Assembly: GCA_022703505.1 (NCBI GenBank)
Contig: JAKLDN010000011.1
Span: 1-53,009, forward strand
Origin: Spirochaetota bacterium
GTDB lineage: Bacteria; Spirochaetota; Spirochaetia; Treponematales; UBA12059
Length of the DNA: 53,009 nucleotides
Direction of reading: 5' to 3'
Numbering within the stretch: position 1 is the first letter of the stretch; each line of letters opens with the position of its first letter. Both the position numbers and the translations under genes were made by a program. Below the pieces are notes generated by a model. The model saw nothing but the letters and a program-made list of their open reading frames with translations, searched no databases and was not told the DNA's origin. Below are positions 2,183 to 53,009 of this stretch, piece by piece.

Positions 2183-5100
2183 ATGCGACGAGCGGCGGAC
2201 CTGCACATCCATTCCCGGCATTCCATAGCCACCAGCCCCAAGCTGACCCCCGTCCACCTGGACCGCTGGGCCCGGGTGAAAGGCCTGGACCTGGTCGGCA
2301 CCGGGGACTGCACCCATCCCGCCTGGCTGGAGGAGCTCGGGGAGTCCCTGGAACCCGCGGGGGACGGGTTGTACCGGCTGCGGCCGGAATTGCGCCGGGC
2401 CTTCGACGCGGGGCCGGCCCTGTCGGAAAACCTGCCGGAGCCCGGTACGGACCGGGCCGTCCGCTTCGTCCTCTCCGGCGAGATCAGCACCATCTACTCC
2501 CGGGACGGCCGCACCCGGAAGGTCCATCACCTGGTCCTCCTTCCGGATTTCGAGGCGGCGCGTTCCTTCCAGGCGCGCCTGGCGCGGGTCGGAAACGTCA
2601 CCTCCGACGGGCGGCCCATCCTGGGGATCGATTCCCGGGACCTCTTCCACCTCCTTTTGGACTCCGACCCCCGGGCGATCCTGGTGCCCGCCCACATCTG
2701 GACCCCCTGGTTCTCCGCCCTGGGGGAACGGTCCGGCTTCGACTCCATCGAGGAGTGCTACGGGGACCTGGCGGACCGGATCACGGCGATCGAGACGGGA
2801 CTGTCCTCCAACCCTCCCATGAACTGGGCCGTGGGTTCCCTGGACCGCTTCGCGATCGTCTCCAACTCCGACGCCCACTCCCCGGAAAAGCTGGGCCGGG
2901 AGGCGACCATTCTGGACATGGAGGATTCCTGGGAGGGCCTGACCCGGGCCCTGGGGGGCGGGGGGCCGGCGGGGCGGATCCTGGAGACCCTGGAGTTCTT
3001 CCCCCAGGAGGGCAAGTACCACGCCGACGGCCATAGGGCTTGCGGGGTGGTCCGGATGCCCGGGGAGGATTCCTGGGGCCCCTGCCCGGTCTGCGGCAAG
3101 CCCCTGACCCCGGGGGTCCTGGGGAGGGTGGCCGCCTTGGCGGACCGGCCCGTGGACGAGTCCGCCCCCTGCCCGGCGGAGTACGCGGGCACGAACCGCA
3201 GGCCCTATCGCTCCCTGATCCCCCTCAAGGAGATCCTGGCGGAATTGATCGGAGCGGGGGAGGGTTCGAAGGCCGTGGCCTCCGCCTACGCGTCATTGGT
3301 ACGGGAGGCCGGCAGCGAGTTCGGACTGCTCCTGGACCTGGACCTGCGCGAGATCGGGGCCTTCCGGGCCCCGGGGATCCCCGGGGAACTCCTGGCCGAG
3401 GCGGTGGGGCGGATGCGCTCGGGGCGGGTCCGGATCCGGCCCGGGTACGACGGGGAATACGGGGAGATCCGCCTCTTCGCCCCGGGGGAGCGGTTCGAGC
3501 CCCGGGACGGAGCGGGGCTCTTCGGGCCGGAGAATGCCCGGGAGGGGACGATAGCCGCGGCGGGAGAGGCTGCGGCTCCGATTCCCGCCCGGCGCGGGCC
3601 CCGGGAGCGGCCCCGGAATCCGGCCGGGAAGGCGGGCGGGAGCGCCGAGGCGCCGATCCCGACGGACGGTTCCGGGCCCGCCGTCGGCATTGCGCCGGAT
3701 CCGGACCAGGAGCTCGCGGTGGCCCACCCCGGCGGTCCGGCCCTGGTCCTGGCCGGACCGGGCACGGGCAAGACCTCGGTCCTGATCCGGCGGATAGCCC
3801 GCGTGTTAAAGGAGGGTGCCGATCCCTCCTCGATCCTGGCCCTGACCTTCACGAACAAGGCGGCCCGGGAGCTCCGTGACCGGCTGGAACGGGGTCCGGT
3901 GACCGGACCGTCGGGGGTCGTGACGGCTTCCACCTTCCACGCCTTCTGCCTGGGCCTCCTGCGGGAACATGCCGCGGACGCGGGACTACCGCAGGGCTTC
4001 CGGGTGTTCGGAGAGAAGGAGCGGGACGCCTTGCTGGCCGAGACCGCCGGGAAGCGGGTCCGTTCCCTGGGCGCCTACGTCGAATCGAGGAAGCGCCGCC
4101 TCCTCCTCCCCGGGGAGCGGACGCCCCGCCTGGGACCCGGGGCTCCCCCGGACCTGCTCGTCCTGCTCAAACCGGAGGAGACGGCGGGCGGCCCCGGCTT
4201 CGACCCGGACCTGGACGCCCTGTACTCGGCGTACCGGGCCCGGCTCAAGGCGGCGGGGGCCCTGGACTTCGACGACCTGGTCTCCGGGGCCGTCCGGCTC
4301 CTGGCCGCCCGGCCGGAAATCCTGAGTTCCCTCCGGGACCGATACCTCAAGGTCTACGTGGACGAGTACCAGGACGTGAACCTGGCCCAGTACGCCCTGG
4401 TCCGCGTCCTGGCGCCCCCGGAGCTCTACCCGGAGCCGGGCACGGAAGCTGCGGGCCCCGGCCTCGATCCGGATGCGCCGGCCCCCCGCCGGGAACTTCT
4501 GGTCATCGGGGACCCCGACCAGTCCATCTACTCCTTCCGGGGGGCGGATCCCCGGTTCATCGAGCGGTTCCGGCAGGATTATAACGGCGCCCGGGTCTAT
4601 TCCCTGTCCCGGAGCTGGCGCTGCCCCCCGGCCATCCTCGGGGCCGCGGGACGGCTGGCCGGGCGGATCCTCTCGGGTTCGGGGACGGCCGCGGTCCTGG
4701 AGCGCCGGGAGGCTCCCACGGAAAGGTCCGAGGCGGAAGGCATCGCCCGCCGGATCGACGCGATGATCGGGGGGACCCGGTTCTTCGCCCTGGACAGCGG
4801 AACCGCGGGAGGCGCGGACGAGTCATCGGCGCCCGCCCTGCGGAGCCTCTCGGAATGCGCGGTCCTCGTGCGGACCTCCGCCCAGATCCCGGCCCTGGAG
4901 CAGGCCCTCCGGGACCACGGCCTGCCCTGCCGGACCGCGGACGGGTACCCCGGGCTGGAGGAGGATCCCTCCCGAGCCGCCCCGGAAGGAACGGACGCGT
5001 CGGCCGGAGCGGAGCCGATCGCCCGAGAGGCCGCGGATCCCCGGGACGAGGCCGTCCGGCTCCTGACCGTCCACGCGGCCAAGGGCCTCGAGTTCGATTA

Positions 5101-5413: not shown

Positions 5414-6030
5414 CCCTGGAAGCCGCCCTGGCCCGCCTGGATCCCTCCCGGCCCCTCCCCGGGGAGGCGGCCCGGGCTTCCATGATCCCCGAGTACCGAA
5501 AAAGCCCCCGGTCGGAGGACGACGGCGAACCCTGGAGGGAGGCCTCGGTCCTGATCCTCCTGTATCCCTCGGACGGCCGGGCCGTCTTCCCCCTCATCCA
5601 GAGACCCCCCGGCGCGGGGATTCACGCGGGCCAGGTGTCCCTGCCCGGCGGCGCCCGGGAAAAGGGGGAGTCCGCCTGGGAATGCGCACTTCGGGAGACT
5701 TCCGAGGAACTCGGCTTCGACACCGCGGGCGTCCGGAAGGTCCGGGAGCTTAGCACCCTGCGGGTCCCGCCCAGCCGCTTCCTGGTCCGCCCCTTCGCGG
5801 GGACCCTGGACGCCCGCCCCATCATCCGTCCCTCCCCCGCGGAGGCGGAGGAGTGCTTCGAGACGGGCCTGGACGAACTGCTCGCCCCCGGGTCCCGGGA
5901 GGAGGAGCTCGTGGAGCGGGAGGGCCGCCTTTGGAGGGTGCCCTTCTACCGTCTGTCCGGCCGCCGGGTCTGGGGCGCCACAGCGATGATGCTGGCGGAG
6001 CTGTTAGAATTGATGATCGTGAATAGGTGA
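5410..6030 (+). CDS. Nudix hydrolase, CoA pyrophosphatase type
   Basis: A 206-residue Nudix protein. It has the family signature before the Nudix box (FPLIQRPPGAGIHAGQVSLP, about residues 62-81) and a clean Nudix box GGAREKGESAWECALRETSE followed by ELGF. The pre-box motif is characteristic of the NudL/UPF0035 group, which hydrolyses coenzyme A to phosphopantetheine and 3',5'-ADP. Its ATG overlaps the TGA of the helicase gene (ATGA), so translation is coupled. A housecleaning role fits a repair operon, but substrate preference is inferred from family only. The coding end runs directly into a heptamer repeat. Confidence 0.88.
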   Translation: MTLEAALARLDPSRPLPGEAARASMIPEYRKSPRSEDDGEPWREASVLILLYPSDGRAVFPLIQRPPGAGIHAGQVSLPGGAREKGESAWECALRETSEELGFDTAGVRKVRELSTLRVPPSRFLVRPFAGTLDARPIIRPSPAEAEECFETGLDELLAPGSREEELVEREGRLWRVPFYRLSGRRVWGATAMMLAELLELMIVNR

Positions 6031-6107
6031 ATCGTGAATAGGTGAATCGGACAGCCTTCACCAAACACTGTGCACCTGCTACCCGAAAACCTCATTCACC
6101 CATTCAC
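6019..6107. repeat. GTGAATAGGTGAAT heptamer repeat hairpin, copy 1
   Basis: Left arm has GTGAATAGGTGAAT twice (6019-6032 and 6034-6047); right arm has ATTCACCCATTCAC (6094-6107), complementary at 13 of 14 positions. It lies between two convergent genes and overlaps the end of the Nudix gene, so it could act as a bidirectional terminator. A homologous array lies at 30917-31069. Confidence 0.75.
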
Positions 6108-13757: not shown

Positions 13758-14602
13758 GGGGCACGGAGCTGGACGGGAAGGTGGCCGTGGTCACGGGAGG
13801 CGGGTCCGGGATCGGCCGGGCCCTCTGCGGGGAGCTGGCCCGGCGGGGAGCCCGGGTGGTCGACACGGCGGGGGCCGAGGAGACCGCGGCCGGTATCCGG
13901 GCCGGGGCCGCCGGGCCGGAGGCCGGGCCGAGGGCGCTCGCACGCCGGGTGGACGTCACAGACCCCGGGGACGTGGAAGCCCTGATGGCGGAGACCGTCC
14001 GGGATTTCGGCCGGATCGATTTCCTCTTCAACAACGCCGGGGTATCCGCCAACGGGGAGTTCCAGGACATCGGCCCGGAGCACTGGAAGCGGATCCTGGA
14101 CGTGAACCTCTGGGGGGTCGTCCACGGGTGCCGGGCGGCCTACCCCCGCATGGTCCGCCAGGGCTTCGGCCACATCGTCAACACTGCCTCCCTGGCGGGG
14201 CTCATACCCGGCAGCCTCACATCCGCCTATTCCGCCAGCAAGCACGCCGTGGTGGGCCTGTCCCTGACCCTCCGCGCCGAGGCCCGAACCCGGGGCGTCC
14301 GGGTGACCGCCCTCTGCCCGGGCTACATCCGGACCCCCATCCTCAAGACGACCCCGACCTTGAGCCCCTACATGGATTCCCCGAGGAACCGGGAGATGAA
14401 CGAGGGCCTGCGCTTCCCCGGCCCCGAAGGCTGCGCCCCGGCCATGGTCCGGGGCGTCCTGCGGAACAAGGCCGTCGTGATCGCGCCCGCATCCCAGGCG
14501 ATCTACTGGCTGCTCTACCGATTGGCCCCGGCCCTCCTGCCCTGGGCGGGCTCCAAGATCGTGGAGACGATGCGGAGGAACGCCGAGGCGGACGGGAGGT
14601 AG
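13754..14602 (+). CDS. Short-chain dehydrogenase/reductase
   Basis: A 282-residue classical SDR. It has the cofactor motif TGGGSGIGRA (about residues 14-23), NNAG (about 97), the catalytic Ser in NTASLAG and YSASK (Tyr and Lys of the active site, about 159-163). After the cofactor strand the sequence carries no clear NADP-specific basic cluster, so coenzyme choice is unclear. The C-terminal part (IYWLLYRLAPALLPWAGSKI) is hydrophobic and may contact the membrane. Coupling with a lipoprotein lipase-like gene suggests lipid or fatty-acyl metabolism; this is inference from position. Confidence 0.9.
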   Translation: MRGTELDGKVAVVTGGGSGIGRALCGELARRGARVVDTAGAEETAAGIRAGAAGPEAGPRALARRVDVTDPGDVEALMAETVRDFGRIDFLFNNAGVSANGEFQDIGPEHWKRILDVNLWGVVHGCRAAYPRMVRQGFGHIVNTASLAGLIPGSLTSAYSASKHAVVGLSLTLRAEARTRGVRVTALCPGYIRTPILKTTPTLSPYMDSPRNREMNEGLRFPGPEGCAPAMVRGVLRNKAVVIAPASQAIYWLLYRLAPALLPWAGSKIVETMRRNAEADGR

Positions 14603-14632
14603 CGTTCCGGCGGGGATGAACCGGGTTTCCCT

Positions 14633-14680
14633 CCGATCCGGGAAAGGATCGGGCATCCCCCCTGGAGCACGGAATGCTCC
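14633..14680. terminator. Two short hairpins between convergent genes
   Basis: CCGATCC-GGGAAA-GGATCGG (14633-14652) and GGAGCA-CGGAA-TGCTCC (14664-14680). They lie between the convergent SDR and barrel genes. No T-tract follows either arm, so terminator function is weakly supported. Confidence 0.35.
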
Positions 14681-14704
14681 GCCGGTCCCCGCCGCCCATC
14701 GGAC

Positions 14705-15448
14705 CTATCTCCCCCCGGACATATCGTACCAGTCGTTCACCGGCGTCTTCTGGGTTTCGACGAACCGGGCGCCCTGGGGCAGGAAGTACTTGAGGCCGAG
14801 GGTGAAGGCGAAACGTCCCCGGACCTCGTCGAGCAGGGGCACTCCGGGATCGTAGGGATCCCCGAAGGCGTCGCGGACCCGCCGGATGACGCCCAGACGG
14901 AATCCGGCCTCCGCGTAGGGGGCCAGAAGCTCCGACACCCGGTAATACGCGCGGACCTTGGGCTCCAGCCAGAGTTGGAACGACAGACTGTGATCGGATT
15001 CCCGGACGTCGTCGGACACCCCGGGAAGGCCGGGCCAGATCCCGACTCCCAGTTCCGCCCCAACGCCCAGGATCCAGGAGCTCCCCAGGGGGAAGTACCA
15101 GGAGGGCTCGAAGCCGAGTCCCAGGAACAGGTCACGGCTGATACTTTCCTGCAGGCTGGAGTTCAGAGTATGCCGGGAGTACAGGAGCATCGACGGGCGG
15201 AGGGCCAGGGAGAACCGGTCGGCCAGGAACCGGCCGACGCTTATGGACGCCTCCGTGATCTGGAGATACTCTCCCTTCTCCTCCTCCGTGACATCTCCCG
15301 CGAAAATGGGGTAGTCGGGATTATGGGAGAACTTGACCGTGCCCCCGAACTCCCAGCCCCCCGCGGCCAGGGGATCGGGCGCCTGGGCGAAGGCCGCGGC
15401 GGAAACCGCGATCAGGGCCAGGACCATCCAAAGACCTTTGTTGCGCAT
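14705..15448 (-). CDS. Predicted outer-membrane beta-barrel protein
   Basis: A 247-residue exported protein. It starts with a typical signal peptide (MRNKGLWMVLALIAVSAAAF, cut after AQA). The rest alternates polar and hydrophobic residues with aromatic girdles (FGGTVKFSHN, YLQITEASISVGRFLADRFS, LFLGLGFEPSWYFPLG, FAFTLGLKYFLPQG), the pattern of an 8-stranded outer-membrane barrel. The ATG is backed by GGAGG 5 nt upstream. It shares a 25-bp upstream block with the neighbouring lipoprotein gene and is likely controlled with it by the LuxR regulator. No enzyme motif seen; role unknown. Confidence 0.8.
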   Translation of the reverse strand: MRNKGLWMVLALIAVSAAAFAQAPDPLAAGGWEFGGTVKFSHNPDYPIFAGDVTEEEKGEYLQITEASISVGRFLADRFSLALRPSMLLYSRHTLNSSLQESISRDLFLGLGFEPSWYFPLGSSWILGVGAELGVGIWPGLPGVSDDVRESDHSLSFQLWLEPKVRAYYRVSELLAPYAEAGFRLGVIRRVRDAFGDPYDPGVPLLDEVRGRFAFTLGLKYFLPQGARFVETQKTPVNDWYDMSGGR

Positions 15449-15513
15449 ACAACCTCCGCATGAATGATGGGATCGAGATCGTTCCCACATCCTGCGGGGG
15501 ATGTTCGAGAAAG

Positions 15514-15538
15514 GCCATCACCCGAAAGGGGTTAGGCC
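15514..15538 (-). promoter_or_regulatory. LuxR-type operator upstream of the barrel gene
   Basis: A 25-bp block identical at 23 positions to 17403-17427; both differences fall in the 5-bp centre. On the coding strand it is an inverted repeat TAACCC-N5-GGGTGA. It lies 65 bp upstream of the barrel ATG and 20 nt before a -10-like CAGGAT, about where a class II activator binds. Confidence 0.65.
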
Positions 15539-15597
15539 GAGGGGCTCAGCCCGCGGCGGGAGGACGCCGGGGCAATCACGGCGATCCCGCCGCTACA

Positions 15598-17340
15598 TCA
15601 CCGGCACGACACCTCGTTCGAGTACGCGGAATACTGCAGGACCCCGCCGCCGATGTCCCGGTATCCCCGGACCCGGTATTTGTACGCCTTCGTGTTATCC
15701 GGCCGGGTATCGGTATGATCCAATACCCATTGGCTTACATTCCAGCTCTTGGCTCCGATCAGAGCGGAACCGACCTCCGACCACAGCCCGGTATCGGGGT
15801 TGTATCGCTCCGCCTTGTACCCGTGGACTCCCCCGTCCGACAGCTGGTATATCCGTACCGTCGACTGCCAGGGCGCGGCCATGGTGTAGGAGTAAAGCTG
15901 CAGCGCGGGAGTCCCGATCTCCGTCCGCGCCGTCGTCGTCGCGGGAGCGGACGTGCCTCCGGCGTTTCGGGCGGTGATGCGGAACGCGTACTCGCCCAAG
16001 GACTCGGGGATCCAGACCACCGTGCCGGTCTTGCCGGACGGATAGTACTGGGCGAAGGAGATGTTTGCCTGTCTGGATCCGGGGATGCCGGTGGCCCCGA
16101 CGACATACCTCCACGCGCCGTCGACGAACACTTCGATGTCGAACCATCCCAGGTTGATCCCGCTGTGCGACCATGCCGCGGGATCGATGTCGTATCTCCA
16201 CCCCGCCGAATCCCAGCCTCGTGCGGCCAGATTCACGCTGAAGCCTGTCGGGGCCGCCGGCGGATTCACCGTATACGTTTGGGACGCGATGTCGCTGTTC
16301 GCCCAGCCGGGCCGGGTCGCCATGACCTTCACGGTCACGGGCGACATATCCACGGAATAGGAACCGCCGGACGCGGAGGTCCCCGTCGGGTCGGACCCGT
16401 CGACGGTGTACCGGTATGTCACTCCGGAGGTCGCGCATCCGAACGTGACCGCGGCGGCGTGGGACACGATCCCGGATCCGGGCGCGAGGGTGGGAGCGGC
16501 GACCTTGGGAGTATAGGCGGCGGTGGCGACGCCGCTCGAGGTCCACCCGGCCTTCACGGCGATGACCTTCAGGGTGACCGGATCGTTGACCTGGATGCCC
16601 GTCGCGCTCGGGGAACCCGTCGTCGGCGTCGTTCCGTTCGTCGTGTAGTGGTAGGTCACTCCCGCGACAGGACTGGAAAAGCTCACCGTCGATCCGCCCT
16701 CCACGGTACCCGCCGCCGGGCTCAGCCCGGGAGCCGGCAGCCGCGGAGCGTAGGTCGCGACCGCGACGGGGCTGTCCGCCATGCCCGCCTTCACCGCCAG
16801 CAGCTTCAGCGTCACGGGCCCGTCGACCTGGTAGGACGAAACGGAGGGGGAGCCCGTCGTCGGATCGGTCCCGTCCGTCGTGCAGTGGTACGTCACCCCG
16901 CTCGTGGCGCAGGAAAACGTGACGACCGTGCCCGGGTCGACAGCGCCCGGCGCCGGGGAGAACTGCGGCGTAGAAACCTGGCTGTAATCGATGGTGTAGG
17001 TCGCGTCCGCCGCGTCACTGTCGCTCATCCCGGACATGCGGGCGAAGGCGCGGATCGTCATCGTGGTGCCGTTCCCGGCGATCGCGATCGGTACGGTGTA
17101 CAGGGTCGAGGATCCGCCGGGAGCCGAGCCGTCCGTGGTGTACCGGATCTCGGCTCCGCCGGTAGCGGAGGAGATTTCGACCGACTGGTCCTCCGAGAAG
17201 GTTCCGGGGCTCGGAGTGAAGGTGGGTGCGGCGACCTGCTCGAGGGTGGGATCCTCTCCACCCGCGCCCGCCGCGGCGCACCCCGCCAGCATCCCGGCGG
17301 CGGCTAGGAAGGCGAGGACGGCGAAATTCCGGAATCGCAT
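15598..17340 (-). CDS. Lipoprotein with tandem chitobiase-type (CHB_HEX_C) beta repeats
   Basis: A 580-residue surface lipoprotein. The signal peptide ends in the lipobox LAGC (about 18-21). Four similar domains of about 80 residues follow, each with APTFTPSPGTF-like start, an IRYTTDGSAP / TYHCTTDGTDP / TYHYTTNGTTP / TYRYTVDGSDP core and a VTLKVIAVKAG end: the chitobiase/hexosaminidase C-terminal repeat. After about residue 355 comes a fibronectin-III-like part (APTGFSVNL) and a Trp/Tyr-rich C-terminal domain that I do not recognise. Such repeats are extracellular modules for display or glycan contact. GGAGG precedes the ATG. Its upstream region carries the operator shared with the barrel gene. 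Confidence 0.88.
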   Translation of the reverse strand: MRFRNFAVLAFLAAAGMLAGCAAAGAGGEDPTLEQVAAPTFTPSPGTFSEDQSVEISSATGGAEIRYTTDGSAPGGSSTLYTVPIAIAGNGTTMTIRAFARMSGMSDSDAADATYTIDYSQVSTPQFSPAPGAVDPGTVVTFSCATSGVTYHCTTDGTDPTTGSPSVSSYQVDGPVTLKLLAVKAGMADSPVAVATYAPRLPAPGLSPAAGTVEGGSTVSFSSPVAGVTYHYTTNGTTPTTGSPSATGIQVNDPVTLKVIAVKAGWTSSGVATAAYTPKVAAPTLAPGSGIVSHAAAVTFGCATSGVTYRYTVDGSDPTGTSASGGSYSVDMSPVTVKVMATRPGWANSDIASQTYTVNPPAAPTGFSVNLAARGWDSAGWRYDIDPAAWSHSGINLGWFDIEVFVDGAWRYVVGATGIPGSRQANISFAQYYPSGKTGTVVWIPESLGEYAFRITARNAGGTSAPATTTARTEIGTPALQLYSYTMAAPWQSTVRIYQLSDGGVHGYKAERYNPDTGLWSEVGSALIGAKSWNVSQWVLDHTDTRPDNTKAYKYRVRGYRDIGGGVLQYSAYSNEVSCR

Positions 17341-17402
17341 GGGTACCTCCGATGATTATGGATCGACGGGTACCCGATCCTAGGCATGGAAGTATTGGAC
17401 GC

Positions 17403-17427
17403 GCCATCACCCGAACAGGGTTAGGCC
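17403..17427 (-). promoter_or_regulatory. LuxR-type operator upstream of the repeat-lipoprotein gene
   Basis: TAACCC-TGTTC-GGGTGA on the coding strand, 62 bp upstream of the lipoprotein ATG. It overlaps the stop codon of the luxR gene. A TAGGAT -10-like box follows 24 nt after the repeat and no TTGNNN box is present, so the promoter should need an activator bound near -44. Confidence 0.65.
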
Positions 17428-18968
17428 TCGGCCGCACGCTCCTCGGCCGCGGACCTCCGGTCCGGCTCCAGGCAGAGCTCGATGAGGCCCTTGCGGCCGG
17501 GCACGTCGAATTTGCGGTAGACGCTCTTGGCGTGTGTCTTGAGGGTGTTCACCGAAATGTCCAGCCTCCGGGCGATGCTCCCGTAGTCGAGCCGCCCCGC
17601 CAGGAGGGCCGCGATCTCGATCTCCCGTTCCGTGAGGCGGTACGGGGGGTCGAAGCGCTCGTTGATCCTCCGGATCTTGCGGCCCATCGGTTCCCGGATG
17701 TACGCGGGATCCAGGATCGCGACGTGGCCCTCCTCCTCGTACTCCGGAGACGACGGGGCATCCGCCCGCGAACCGGGCGGCCCGATCCGCGTAAGGCTTC
17801 GGAGGGAGAGTTCCTCCTCGAGCACCCGGAGCAAGGGGGGCAGCAAGGCCAGGGCCGTAGAATAGAAGACGACCATCATCCCGACGAACGAGGCGGTATC
17901 CCGACGGCCCGACAGCTCCAGGACCCACCCGATCAACATCCCCACGGACGTCCCCAGGACTACCGCCCCGGTGAAGAGTATCACGATGAGGGGACGACCC
18001 CGGTGCTTATGGAAGATGTCGAAGGTCAGCTTGAACAGAAAGAGGTTCCCCAAGGCCTCCCCGACGACCAGGACCAGGGAGCCCGCCGAGGTGCCGGCGT
18101 GCAAGATGATGAGCCCGTACCCGATGAGCTGGCAAAGGATCATGGAATAGAGCAGGAGGAGGATGTGGATGCCGCTTCCTTTCCGGAGGAACAACAGGTA
18201 GACCGCGGAAGAGACGAGGACCCTGACGCCCGGAGACGGCGTCGTCCAGGCGCTCCCGCCCGTCACGCTCAGGAGTCCCTCGGGCAGGAAGGTCGCGAAA
18301 TACACGAGCAGGAGCAGGACGATCACGATCCCCATGAGCCGCCCCGGGAACGTCAGCGGTGGACCGCTCCCGGGATCCTCCACCCGGCTCATGTCCACGC
18401 GAAGGGCCGCCCAAAGGGCGACCAGGGGCACCGCGAGGTCCATCGCCGCGGCGCCCGGAGTGCCGAACCGCTCCCCCGCCCACAGGACCGCGAGGGACAC
18501 GGCTCCCCCTCCCAGGTGCACCGCCGCGATGGAGGAGACCCTCGGAAGCCCCGGGAATGCGTACACCCAAAAATGGAACATGGCGCCGAAGGAGGTACCG
18601 GCCAGGATCCCGAAGAGACCGAATCCACATCCGCCCGCCCTCGCCGGCGGTATGAACCGGAGGACCAGGATCGCCGCCAGGGCCGCAGCCGCGCAACCGG
18701 AAACCATTGCCTTGACGTTGAAGCGGCGCATGAAGGATAGCCCGGCGAACATACCGATCAGAAATCCGCCGAAATAGAATAGGCGGGCGGAGTCCGCGCC
18801 GCCGTCCGGACCCGTCAGGATGATCCACGGGGACGATTGATAGAAGTACGCCAGGGTCCAGCCGAACAGTAGGGAGCAGGTCAGGAAGGCGGACGGGAGG
18901 AAGGGTCGGCGGGTCTCCGCGGAGGATCCGTTGGTTCGATTACATAATTCGTTTATAGCTGAAGCCAT
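17421..18968 (-). CDS. LuxR-family regulator with N-terminal multi-TM (MFS-like) domain
   Basis: A 515-residue membrane-bound transcription factor. Residues about 25-400 form roughly ten to twelve membrane helices (FLTCSLLFGWTLAYFY, ALAAILVLRFIPPA, LMGIVIVLLLLVYFATFLP, FVGMMVVFYSTALALLPP). The C-terminus is a LuxR/GerE helix-turn-helix: YRLTEREIEIAALLAGRLDY, GSIARRLDISVNTLKTHAKS, VYRKFDVPGRKGLIEL. There is no receiver domain, so the signal presumably comes through the membrane domain. It lies directly upstream of, and on the same strand as, two exported-protein genes that share an operator. No clear Shine-Dalgarno; a near-consensus promoter ends 12 nt before the ATG. Confidence 0.9.
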   Translation of the reverse strand: MASAINELCNRTNGSSAETRRPFLPSAFLTCSLLFGWTLAYFYQSSPWIILTGPDGGADSARLFYFGGFLIGMFAGLSFMRRFNVKAMVSGCAAAALAAILVLRFIPPARAGGCGFGLFGILAGTSFGAMFHFWVYAFPGLPRVSSIAAVHLGGGAVSLAVLWAGERFGTPGAAAMDLAVPLVALWAALRVDMSRVEDPGSGPPLTFPGRLMGIVIVLLLLVYFATFLPEGLLSVTGGSAWTTPSPGVRVLVSSAVYLLFLRKGSGIHILLLLYSMILCQLIGYGLIILHAGTSAGSLVLVVGEALGNLFLFKLTFDIFHKHRGRPLIVILFTGAVVLGTSVGMLIGWVLELSGRRDTASFVGMMVVFYSTALALLPPLLRVLEEELSLRSLTRIGPPGSRADAPSSPEYEEEGHVAILDPAYIREPMGRKIRRINERFDPPYRLTEREIEIAALLAGRLDYGSIARRLDISVNTLKTHAKSVYRKFDVPGRKGLIELCLEPDRRSAAEERAAEA

Positions 18969-18980
18969 GCTGCAGGTTCG

Positions 18981-19009
18981 ACTGTATTCCAGGCGCCGCC
19001 TCCTGTCAA
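18981..19009 (-). promoter_or_regulatory. Near-consensus promoter of the membrane LuxR gene
   Basis: TTGACA, 17 bp, TACAGT, 12 nt to the ATG at 18968. The -35 box is a full match to the sigma-70 consensus, the best in the window. Confidence 0.7.
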
Positions 19010-19608
19010 CGCGAGGGAGAGGATACCCGCCCGCTGTAGCCCCCCAGGATCAGGGAATACCCACGCTCGATGTTGCGGCGGCAGGAGCCCTCGTCCATGT
19101 CGTGCCGGCCGGAAAGGAAGGCCAGGATGAGACCGTTCGCCAGAACCAGGAAGAGGAAGCCGTCCCTCCGGAGCTCCTCCTGGCGGACGGGATCCAGGAG
19201 CCCCGGGATCAGGTCGATCCCGCTCCAGTAGAGCCTCCGCACCTTGGGATCCCCGGTGGTCGGTCCGAACCCGCTCTGGAAGACGAAGCGGTAGAGGTTG
19301 GGCCGGCGCTTCGCGTACTCGAGGAGCTCCTCCGCGATGATCTTGAACAAGGCGCAAGGCCGGCACGGTCCTTCGACTTCCTCCGGAATCCGGGGTTTGA
19401 GAGCCTCCGTGATCTCCTCGAAACCCCGGGCGATCACACCGTCCAGGATCTCCCCAAAGGCCAGGTAATTGTAGAGGGTCATGTGGGAGACCCCGAGTAT
19501 CTGGGCCAGCCGCCGGGCCGAGAAGTCCTCGTACCCCTCCCGGTCGATTAGGTCGTAGGCGGTTTGCACGATGTCCCCGGGGTCCGCGACCCGTTTCGAT
19601 CTTCCCAT
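19006..19608 (-). CDS. TetR-family transcriptional regulator
   Basis: A 200-residue protein. The N-terminal helix-turn-helix is complete: IVQTAYDLIDREGYEDFSAR, RLAQILGVSHMTLYNYLAFG. The C-terminal ligand-binding region is helical and divergent, with ALFKIIAEELLEYAKRRPNL and LFLVLANGLILAFLSGRHDM. I use the ATG at 19608 because the fold begins a few residues later and a TACTAT -10 box lies 10 nt upstream; the open frame continues upstream but without family features. Its 3' end overlaps the LuxR -35 region. Targets unknown; the divergent small hypothetical gene is the nearest candidate. Confidence 0.88.
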   Translation of the reverse strand: MGRSKRVADPGDIVQTAYDLIDREGYEDFSARRLAQILGVSHMTLYNYLAFGEILDGVIARGFEEITEALKPRIPEEVEGPCRPCALFKIIAEELLEYAKRRPNLYRFVFQSGFGPTTGDPKVRRLYWSGIDLIPGLLDPVRQEELRRDGFLFLVLANGLILAFLSGRHDMDEGSCRRNIERGYSLILGGYSGRVSSPSR

Positions 19609-19618
19609 TCTGCGTTCG

Positions 19619-30905: not shown

Positions 30906-30916
30906 CTGCGAGAGGA

Positions 30917-31069
30917 GTGAATAGGTAAATCGTGAATGGGTGAATCGGAGGGAAAGCGGGCTTCGGCCGAGTCCGCTGCTTTTCAATAACCGCTCTCCAA
31001 GCTCCGGCCCCCGTCTTATTCACCCATTCACCCATTCACTCATTCACCCATTCACCTATTCACCTAACT
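30917..31069. repeat. GTGAATAGGTGAAT heptamer repeat hairpin, copy 2
   Basis: Left arm 30917-30948 matches the 32 bp at 6019-6050 at 30 positions. The right arm 31018-31068 is an array of ATTCACC/CATTCAC heptamers (about seven units). The arms are complementary, so a long hairpin with a loop of about 70 nt is possible. It lies between the START-like gene and the eno promoter, overlapping the end of the former. Confidence 0.75.
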
Positions 31070-33934: not shown

Positions 33935-34237
33935 CGACGAAGCGCGCCCGGAAGGCGCGCTTCGTCGATTTACCGATCTGCTTTTTTGACGGCGGTTTTC
34001 AGCCTTGCAACGACGAAGCCCGCCTGCCGGCGGGCTTCGTCGAATTCTACAGGAAACCTTTATTGGCAGCCGGTTTTCGCGCAGCGAAAACCGATCGCTG
34101 AGCCGCGCTCGGGGCTGCGCCCCGAGGCAACGAAGCCCGCCGGAAGGCGGGCTTCGTCGAATTCTACAGGAAGCCTTTATTGGCAGCCGGTTTTCGCGCA
34201 GCGAAAACCGATCGCTGAGCCGCTATGCGGCTCAGCG
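33935..34237. repeat. Cluster of six hairpins with a 78-bp direct repeat
   Basis: This gap (about 330 bp without a gene) is filled by hairpins: 33935-33967 (14-bp stem CGACGAAGCGCGCC), 34011-34042 (CGACGAAGCCCGCC), 34071-34093 (CGGTTTTCGC), 34108-34126 (CTCGGGGC), 34131-34156 (CGAAGCCCGCC) and 34213-34237 (CGCTGAGCCGC). Bases 34029-34106 are repeated at 34146-34223 with one difference. The last hairpin contains the stop codon of the zinc-ribbon gene. Confidence 0.85.
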
Positions 34238-43586: not shown

Positions 43587-43900
43587 GAGCCGTCCCCGCG
43601 GGACGGCCGCTCAAACCGCGCTCCCTGAAGGGACGGCCGTTCGGCCGCCTCGGGACGCGCGATGTGCGCAGGATCATGATACGAAAAACCACGCCGGTTG
43701 TCAACCTGAAGTCCGCTGCGGGCCGCCGACTCCGATAGAAAAGGGGCTGTCCAAAAAGCTCGGATAGCTTTTTAGACAGCTGGTATTAGTGTAGCAGTTT
43801 CTAACGTTCTCAAGAGAACGTTAGAAACTGCAAGGGGTGTCCAATAAGCAACCAACTTATTGGACACCCCGGATCTATATAATTCCGGAGTCTCCGTGCC
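43587..43900. repeat. Hairpin-rich gap between tRNA-Gly and the sigma-factor gene
   Basis: No gene seen. Contains GCCGTCCC-CGC-GGGACGGC near 43587-43605; GCTGTCCAAAAAGCT and its complement (one mismatch, loop CGGAT) at 43746-43780; an 18-bp stem with a loop of 2 nt (CAGTTTCTAACGTTCTC arm) at 43794-43831; and the TGTCCAATAAG copy 2 at 43834-43870. The last may also terminate the sigma-factor transcript. Confidence 0.8.
43834..43870. repeat. TGTCCAATAAG palindromic repeat, copy 2
   Basis: GGGGTGTCCAATAAG and its exact complement (15-bp stem) flank a CAACCAA loop. It shares GGGGTGTCCAATAAG with copy 1 at 2057-2071. Lies 31 bp downstream of the sigma-factor stop. Confidence 0.85.
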
Positions 43901-52743: not shown

Positions 52744-53009
52744 GGGAACCGGTCCGCCCCGCGGATCGATCCCTGAAACAACCTCGACGAGCGTCAGCTC
52801 GTCGCCGGGAACGGAGGTTCGCCCCGCGGACCGGCCCCGAGAAGCCTCGACGAGCGTCAGCTCGTCGCCGGGAACGGAGGTCCGCCCCGCGGACCGGCCC
52901 CGAGAAGCCTCGACGAGCGTCAGCTCGTCGCCGGGAACGGAGGTCCGCCCCGCGGACCGGCCCCGAGAAGCCTCGACGAGCGTCAGCTCGTCGCCGGGAA
53001 CGGAGGTCC
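52744..53009. repeat. 63-bp tandem repeat array, continuing out of the window
   Basis: Units begin with CCTCGACGAGCGTCAGCTCG at 52782, 52845, 52908 and 52971, exactly 63 bp apart. A degenerate partial unit precedes the first. Each unit has two hairpins: GACGAGC-GTCA-GCTCGTC and GGTCCGC-CCC-GCGGACC. Units are nearly identical (GGTTC versus GGTCC once). It lies just upstream of uppP and fills the last 265 bp. The unit is 21 codons long and two + frames stay open, but no start codon or ribosome binding site is seen. Confidence 0.88.

Follow-up and report, generated by a model that had tools for sequence, protein, structure and literature searches.

A predicted operator of a membrane LuxR regulator lies upstream of two putative surface-protein genes in a Spirochaetota bacterium

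Two 25-bp blocks of the form GGCCTAACCC-N5-GGGTGATGGC, both on the minus strand, very probably serve as binding sites for the membrane LuxR regulator that is encoded beside them. They lie in the window, that is, the whole 53,009-nucleotide stretch of DNA that was analysed, and what they add is a predicted operator for a little-known group of sensors. We consider it likely that this LuxR protein is a one-component activator that binds both blocks and switches on a lipoprotein gene and a beta-barrel gene. The genes luxR, lipoprotein and barrel are consecutive on the minus strand; their adjacency is known whereas regulation of the latter two by LuxR is predicted. The features of the locus are as follows.

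18981 to 19009, minus strand: predicted sigma-70-type promoter of luxR, TTGACA-N17-TACAGT, from a promoter scan, 12 nt ahead of the ATG (18968)
17421 to 18968, minus strand: gene of the membrane LuxR regulator, 515 aa, with a polytopic N-terminal membrane domain and a C-terminal GerE HTH
17403 to 17427, minus strand: predicted operator 1, GGCCTAACCCTGTTCGGGTGATGGC, with the core TAACCC-N5-GGGTGA at 17407-17423
17377 to 17382, minus strand: TAGGAT, a weak -10-like box ahead of the lipoprotein gene, read from the sequence
15598 to 17340, minus strand: surface lipoprotein gene, 580 aa, with four CHB_HEX_C_1 repeats (Pfam PF13290, E 6e-49)
15514 to 15538, minus strand: predicted operator 2, GGCCTAACCCCTTTCGGGTGATGGC, with the core TAACCC-N5-GGGTGA at 15518-15534
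15489 to 15494, minus strand: CAGGAT, a weak -10-like box ahead of the barrel gene, read from the sequence
14705 to 15448, minus strand: probable outer-membrane beta-barrel gene, with a signal peptide and barrel-like sequence

The GerE HTH of the LuxR protein (residues 445-496) matched Pfam PF00196 with 34.8 bits against a cut-off of 23.5. Among its solved relatives NarL and VraR are the closest in sequence, which assigns the domain to the NarL type. A strict hydropathy scan gave eight hydrophobic segments in the protein, and about 12 membrane-length helices appeared in an AlphaFold model of low confidence (pLDDT 48, 4 sequences). The lipoprotein gene product carries a signal sequence and the lipobox LAGC. 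No direct Pfam match was obtained for the barrel protein of the window; homologues with 37-47% identity are present in three genomes of the family (G007, G008, and G011), and one of these homologues gave a weak, sub-threshold OMP_b-brl match (E 0.002). Just upstream of luxR, the region 19009-19614 gave a weak, sub-threshold match to TetR_N (E 0.00024).

The preliminary description of this DNA had reported the blocks as near-identical copies in a common position upstream of the two genes, and its account of their layout was correct. They match at 23 of 25 bases and both changes fall in the 5-bp centre (CTTTC versus TGTTC). Their orientation is shared. The block edge lies 65 bp from the ATG of the barrel gene (at 15448) and 62 bp from that of the lipoprotein gene (at 17340). 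Between luxR and the lipoprotein gene lies operator 1; it overlaps the end of luxR, the TAA that opens its core being the luxR stop codon. Operator 2 lies between the lipoprotein and barrel genes. The blocks are approximately 1.9 kb apart and the sequence similarity between them ends at the block edge. No comparable 25-bp pair occurred in five second-order Markov versions of the window.

When GGCCTAACCC-N5-GGGTGATGGC was searched with up to three mismatches, these two places were the only matches in the 3.66-Mb genome. With one mismatch, the 17-bp core had five further genomic matches, every one within an open frame, and four of the five frames show high third-position GC, as coding sequence does here. 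The preliminary description had held that many copies in non-promoter positions would mark the block as a plain repeat element. Since the full block is unique to two places and its near variants sit in open frames, this objection fails. The scan that it had proposed, of the core with two mismatches, was uninformative because it returned more than 100 matches genome-wide (61 and 72 on the two strands) and the count inside the window was no higher than in shuffles.

Before luxR, a sigma-70 scan of 14600-19100 found the promoter listed above, and it found none before either target gene, in agreement with the earlier statement that the targets lack a -35 box. With only 12 nt between the luxR -10 box and the ATG, and no recognisable Shine-Dalgarno sequence, transcripts of luxR would have almost no leader. 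A sigma-70 promoter at luxR and none at the targets would fit a constitutive activator that supplies the missing -35 contact. The -10-like boxes that had been described downstream of the blocks are present but weak, and a common spacing was not significant: over 11 operators the best distance from operator to -10 box was about 23-26 nt (p=0.16), and we have not counted it as support.

To which regulator do the blocks belong? Comparison with other genomes points to LuxR. Among 394 genomes of the order, one, G018, encodes a full-length homologue of the protein, about 29-33% identical; in public species genomes no relative was confirmed by two scans, one with the single protein and one with a two-row alignment. 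In G018, luxR is followed by a gene for an exported lipoprotein with Fn3 repeats, and between the two lies the site TCACAC-TTTTC-GTGTGA. Of the 17 positions of this site, 13 agree with the core in the window; the chance of such agreement is 0.2-0.4% in random sequence with the length and composition of that stretch. Positions 5 and 13 of the arms are altered together relative to the window, and the dyad is kept because they changed jointly. It is the sole perfect copy of this palindrome in the G018 genome. The pattern TMACNCNNTTCGNGTGA, which was fitted to three sites (two in the window and one in G018), had no other match in 23 genomes of the family. A genome of the same genus that is without this LuxR (G001) contains no TMACCC-N4/5-GGGTKA, and the operator site is absent from the barrel homologues of G007, G008, and G011. 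The site thus accompanies luxR, not the barrel gene.

A further case, which surfaced in a background scan of fetched DNA, comes from another family of the same class. In G498, the divergent region between the gene of a 10-TM LuxR and a lipoprotein gene contains TAACCC-CCAGC-GGGTGA, identical to the window at 12 of 12 arm bases. It has the window orientation and stands 56 bp before the lipoprotein start.

To extend the comparison to the class, the motif was fixed as T.ACCC-N4/5-GGGT.A before 60 further LuxR loci were fetched, and these yielded 58 membrane-LuxR genes. Four matches were found in the flanks of the 58 genes where 0.11 were expected (p=4.5e-4), and the 394 kb of control sequence from the same loci held one match. 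All four (L195, L197, L204, and L220) are downstream of luxR. Perfect 6-N4/5-6 palindromes with outer TNA numbered eight around 78 luxR stops versus two around 318 others (p=5e-5); the test with the motif fixed beforehand is the cleaner of the two, because the outer TNA rule was framed once some sites were known. Other spacer lengths gave no comparable excess of palindromes at luxR stops, apart from a weak one for 3-bp spacers. The form TMACCC-N4/5-GGGTKA occurred at 15 places across 11 whole genomes (0-3 per genome), eight of these places being at membrane LuxR loci with both window sites included, a count that speaks to specificity and not to frequency because the genomes were partly picked for a LuxR-adjacent match. 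The ninth place, in G498, lies before a gene for what looks like a soluble MalT-type regulator, and the remaining places are mostly in coding sequence. The earlier assignment of the operator to the neighboring membrane LuxR is therefore supported both by its uniqueness in the genome and by the sites at other membrane-LuxR loci. Direct binding of the protein to the blocks is, on these comparisons, a strongly supported prediction.

It could be speculated that many membrane LuxR sensors of the class share an operator grammar, TNACCC-N4/5-GGGTNA, with a spacer that tracks the type of membrane domain, and we put this at a little short of an even chance. As part of the same tentative reading, the site would usually be at the luxR stop, before the next gene, which often encodes a lipoprotein or envelope protein, and N5 would belong to large proteins (window, G018, and G498) and N4 to proteins with 5-8 TM segments. 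The spacer is indeed 5 bp in the window, G018, and G498 and 4 bp at smaller membrane LuxRs. The rule is not universal, since a recognisable site is present at about 10 of 78 membrane LuxR loci; the other loci, about 68, may use other sequences. If the grammar is true, it lets the targets of orphan membrane LuxRs be read from sequence.

Several other arrangements were seen at these loci. After membrane LuxR genes there are TTACCG-N4-CGGTAA palindromes (L149, region 4360-4402; L150, 1490-1507) and a TCAGTC-N4-GACTGA palindrome (L226, 3890-3910). As the layout is equal and the arms are different, these are possibly a set of specificity variants. L153 (G479:C136) has tandem palindromes at 3298-3350, TCACCC-GCCG-GGGTGA and TCACCC-CGATC-GGGTCA, upstream of a small operon whose last gene encodes a 5-TM LuxR, an arrangement that is possibly autoregulated. 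At L195, L197, L207, L212, and L227, which represent several families, a 5-8-TM LuxR gene has an NAD-dependent epimerase/dehydratase-like gene downstream.

What the blocks do could be explained in other ways. One possibility is that they are operators but that the membrane LuxR represses both genes, or switches its role with the state of the signal. An operator near the -35 region would permit occlusion as well, and there is a precedent in NarL, some of whose sites are repressor sites (PMC4549865). However, the absence of a sigma-70 promoter before both genes suits an activator, and the membrane LuxRs that have been characterised, DadR, HcdR, and CadR, all act as activators (PMC9734109); we regard repression as unlikely. 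Another possibility is a different binder, either a soluble GerE response regulator or the TetR-like protein that may be encoded upstream of luxR. The genome encodes nine GerE proteins in total, and with eight besides the membrane LuxR a soluble one could in principle bind; the weak TetR_N match and the G498 palindrome before the MalT-type gene also lean this way. Such a binder is nevertheless quite improbable, as the motif tracks membrane LuxR genes across families and its own genome has it nowhere besides the luxR locus.

It is also conceivable that the blocks function at the RNA level, either as a 5'-leader hairpin or as the terminator of the upstream gene. GGCC..ACCC-loop-GGGT..GGC is able to form a stem and one copy is at the luxR stop, but the blocks do not fold better than shuffled sequences do (z -0.3 to -1.6), 14600-19100 contains no terminator-like site, and an Rfam search of the whole window returned tRNA alone, with no match at the blocks. 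In addition, the G498 site is in a divergent intergenic region, and the arm letters are constant across families instead of varying freely. A role in RNA is therefore very unlikely. Finally, two copies 1.9 kb apart in a window that holds other dispersed short repeats might be a functionless repeat, either dispersed or the product of a local duplication. We give this idea almost no credence, because the similarity stops at the block, the genome has no further copies, the position before start codons is conserved, and counterparts exist in other genomes.

The other repeats of the window are of several kinds. An octamer array, ATTCACCC x5.9, and near copies of GTGAATRGGTGAATCG were found at 31018-31064, 30915-30949, and 6016-6049, and similar sequence is also present at G000:C7:621385 and 630565; this is a dispersed short repeat with TCACCC half-sites in direct orientation. 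At 34013-34223, downstream of a NifU-like/ParA region, a 117-bp unit occurs as 1.8 tandem copies that contain strong hairpins (ACGAAGCCCGCC..GGCGGGCTTCGT). A 63-bp tandem repeat with 4.1 copies occupies 52751-53009 and reaches the contig end. Near-identical perfect hairpins, GTGTCCAATAAG..CTTATTGGACA, lie far apart at 2055-2095 and 43830-43880.

Our preferred explanation, a membrane-bound activator acting at both blocks, would work as follows. LuxR would be made constitutively from its own sigma-70 promoter. Its membrane domain would perceive a signal, upon which the cytoplasmic GerE HTH would bind TAACCC-N5-GGGTGA as a dimer and recruit RNA polymerase to the two promoters that have no -35 box. 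The output would be a surface lipoprotein with chitobiase-type repeats together with an outer-membrane barrel. Dimerisation, activation rather than repression, and the signal are inferred. The lipoprotein and the barrel may, by analogy with the 12-TM LuxRs of Eggerthella lenta and their neighbors, handle the substance that is sensed, and given the chitobiase-type repeats this substance is perhaps a glycan. The two sites are a ready probe for the isolated HTH domain, and, given a recognisable grammar, a predicted operator would allow targets of membrane LuxRs to be called from genomes.

Binding of a GerE domain to such blocks has direct precedent in the similar sites of BldM and NarL. BldM of Streptomyces, a response regulator with a NarL-type HTH, was footprinted on TCACcCgnncGgGTGA (PMC4125116). 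The window operator resembles that of the BldM homodimer (Group I) in its CCC/GGG arms, in its outer TNA/TNA, and in being a palindrome upstream of the targets (PMC4125116). In contrast, the BldM site is a 16-bp palindrome with a 4-bp spacer, while the arms in the window are separated by 5 bp and one of them carries TAA, and BldM is a soluble atypical response regulator whereas the window LuxR is a polytopic membrane protein. Similarly, the sites of Escherichia coli NarL are inverted repeats of the ACCC/GGGT type (PMC4549865, PMC7419079), an engineered one being TACCCCTAAAGGGGTA (PMC4549865), although the heptamer and spacing of the NarL 7-2-7 sites differ from the window operator. NarL carries a receiver domain and works with a membrane kinase that is a separate protein, whereas the window protein combines sensor and HTH. 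Activation by NarL is possible from a site whose centre is at -44.5 (PMC7419079). With this precedent and with no -35 box before the targets, class II activation near -44, as the preliminary description had proposed, is plausible for the window promoters, with the geometry kept conditional because the -10-like boxes are weak and the common spacing is not significant.

In its architecture and gene position, the window regulator most closely recalls the DadR-type family of 10-12-TM LuxRs. According to PMC9734109, this membrane-integral family was recognised in 2022 through E. lenta, whose 12-TM proteins DadR, HcdR, and CadR activate neighboring genes, as judged from knockouts, and respond to substrates of the enzymes encoded by those neighbors. 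The same paper puts identity between TM domains within the family at below 20% and leaves more than 98% of the clusters of E. lenta membrane LuxRs without an assigned function; the passages searched gave no operator sequence. Our literature search, which covered papers outside subscription, found no published operator for membrane LuxRs. Like these proteins of the Coriobacteriia, the window LuxR has a polytopic N-terminal membrane domain and a C-terminal pfam00196 HTH, and its gene stands beside its probable targets. The difference lies in the targets, which in the E. lenta cases described there are metabolic enzymes and in the window are a surface lipoprotein and a barrel. The locus thus adds cell-surface proteins, beside metabolic enzymes, as a probable output of a membrane LuxR sensor.
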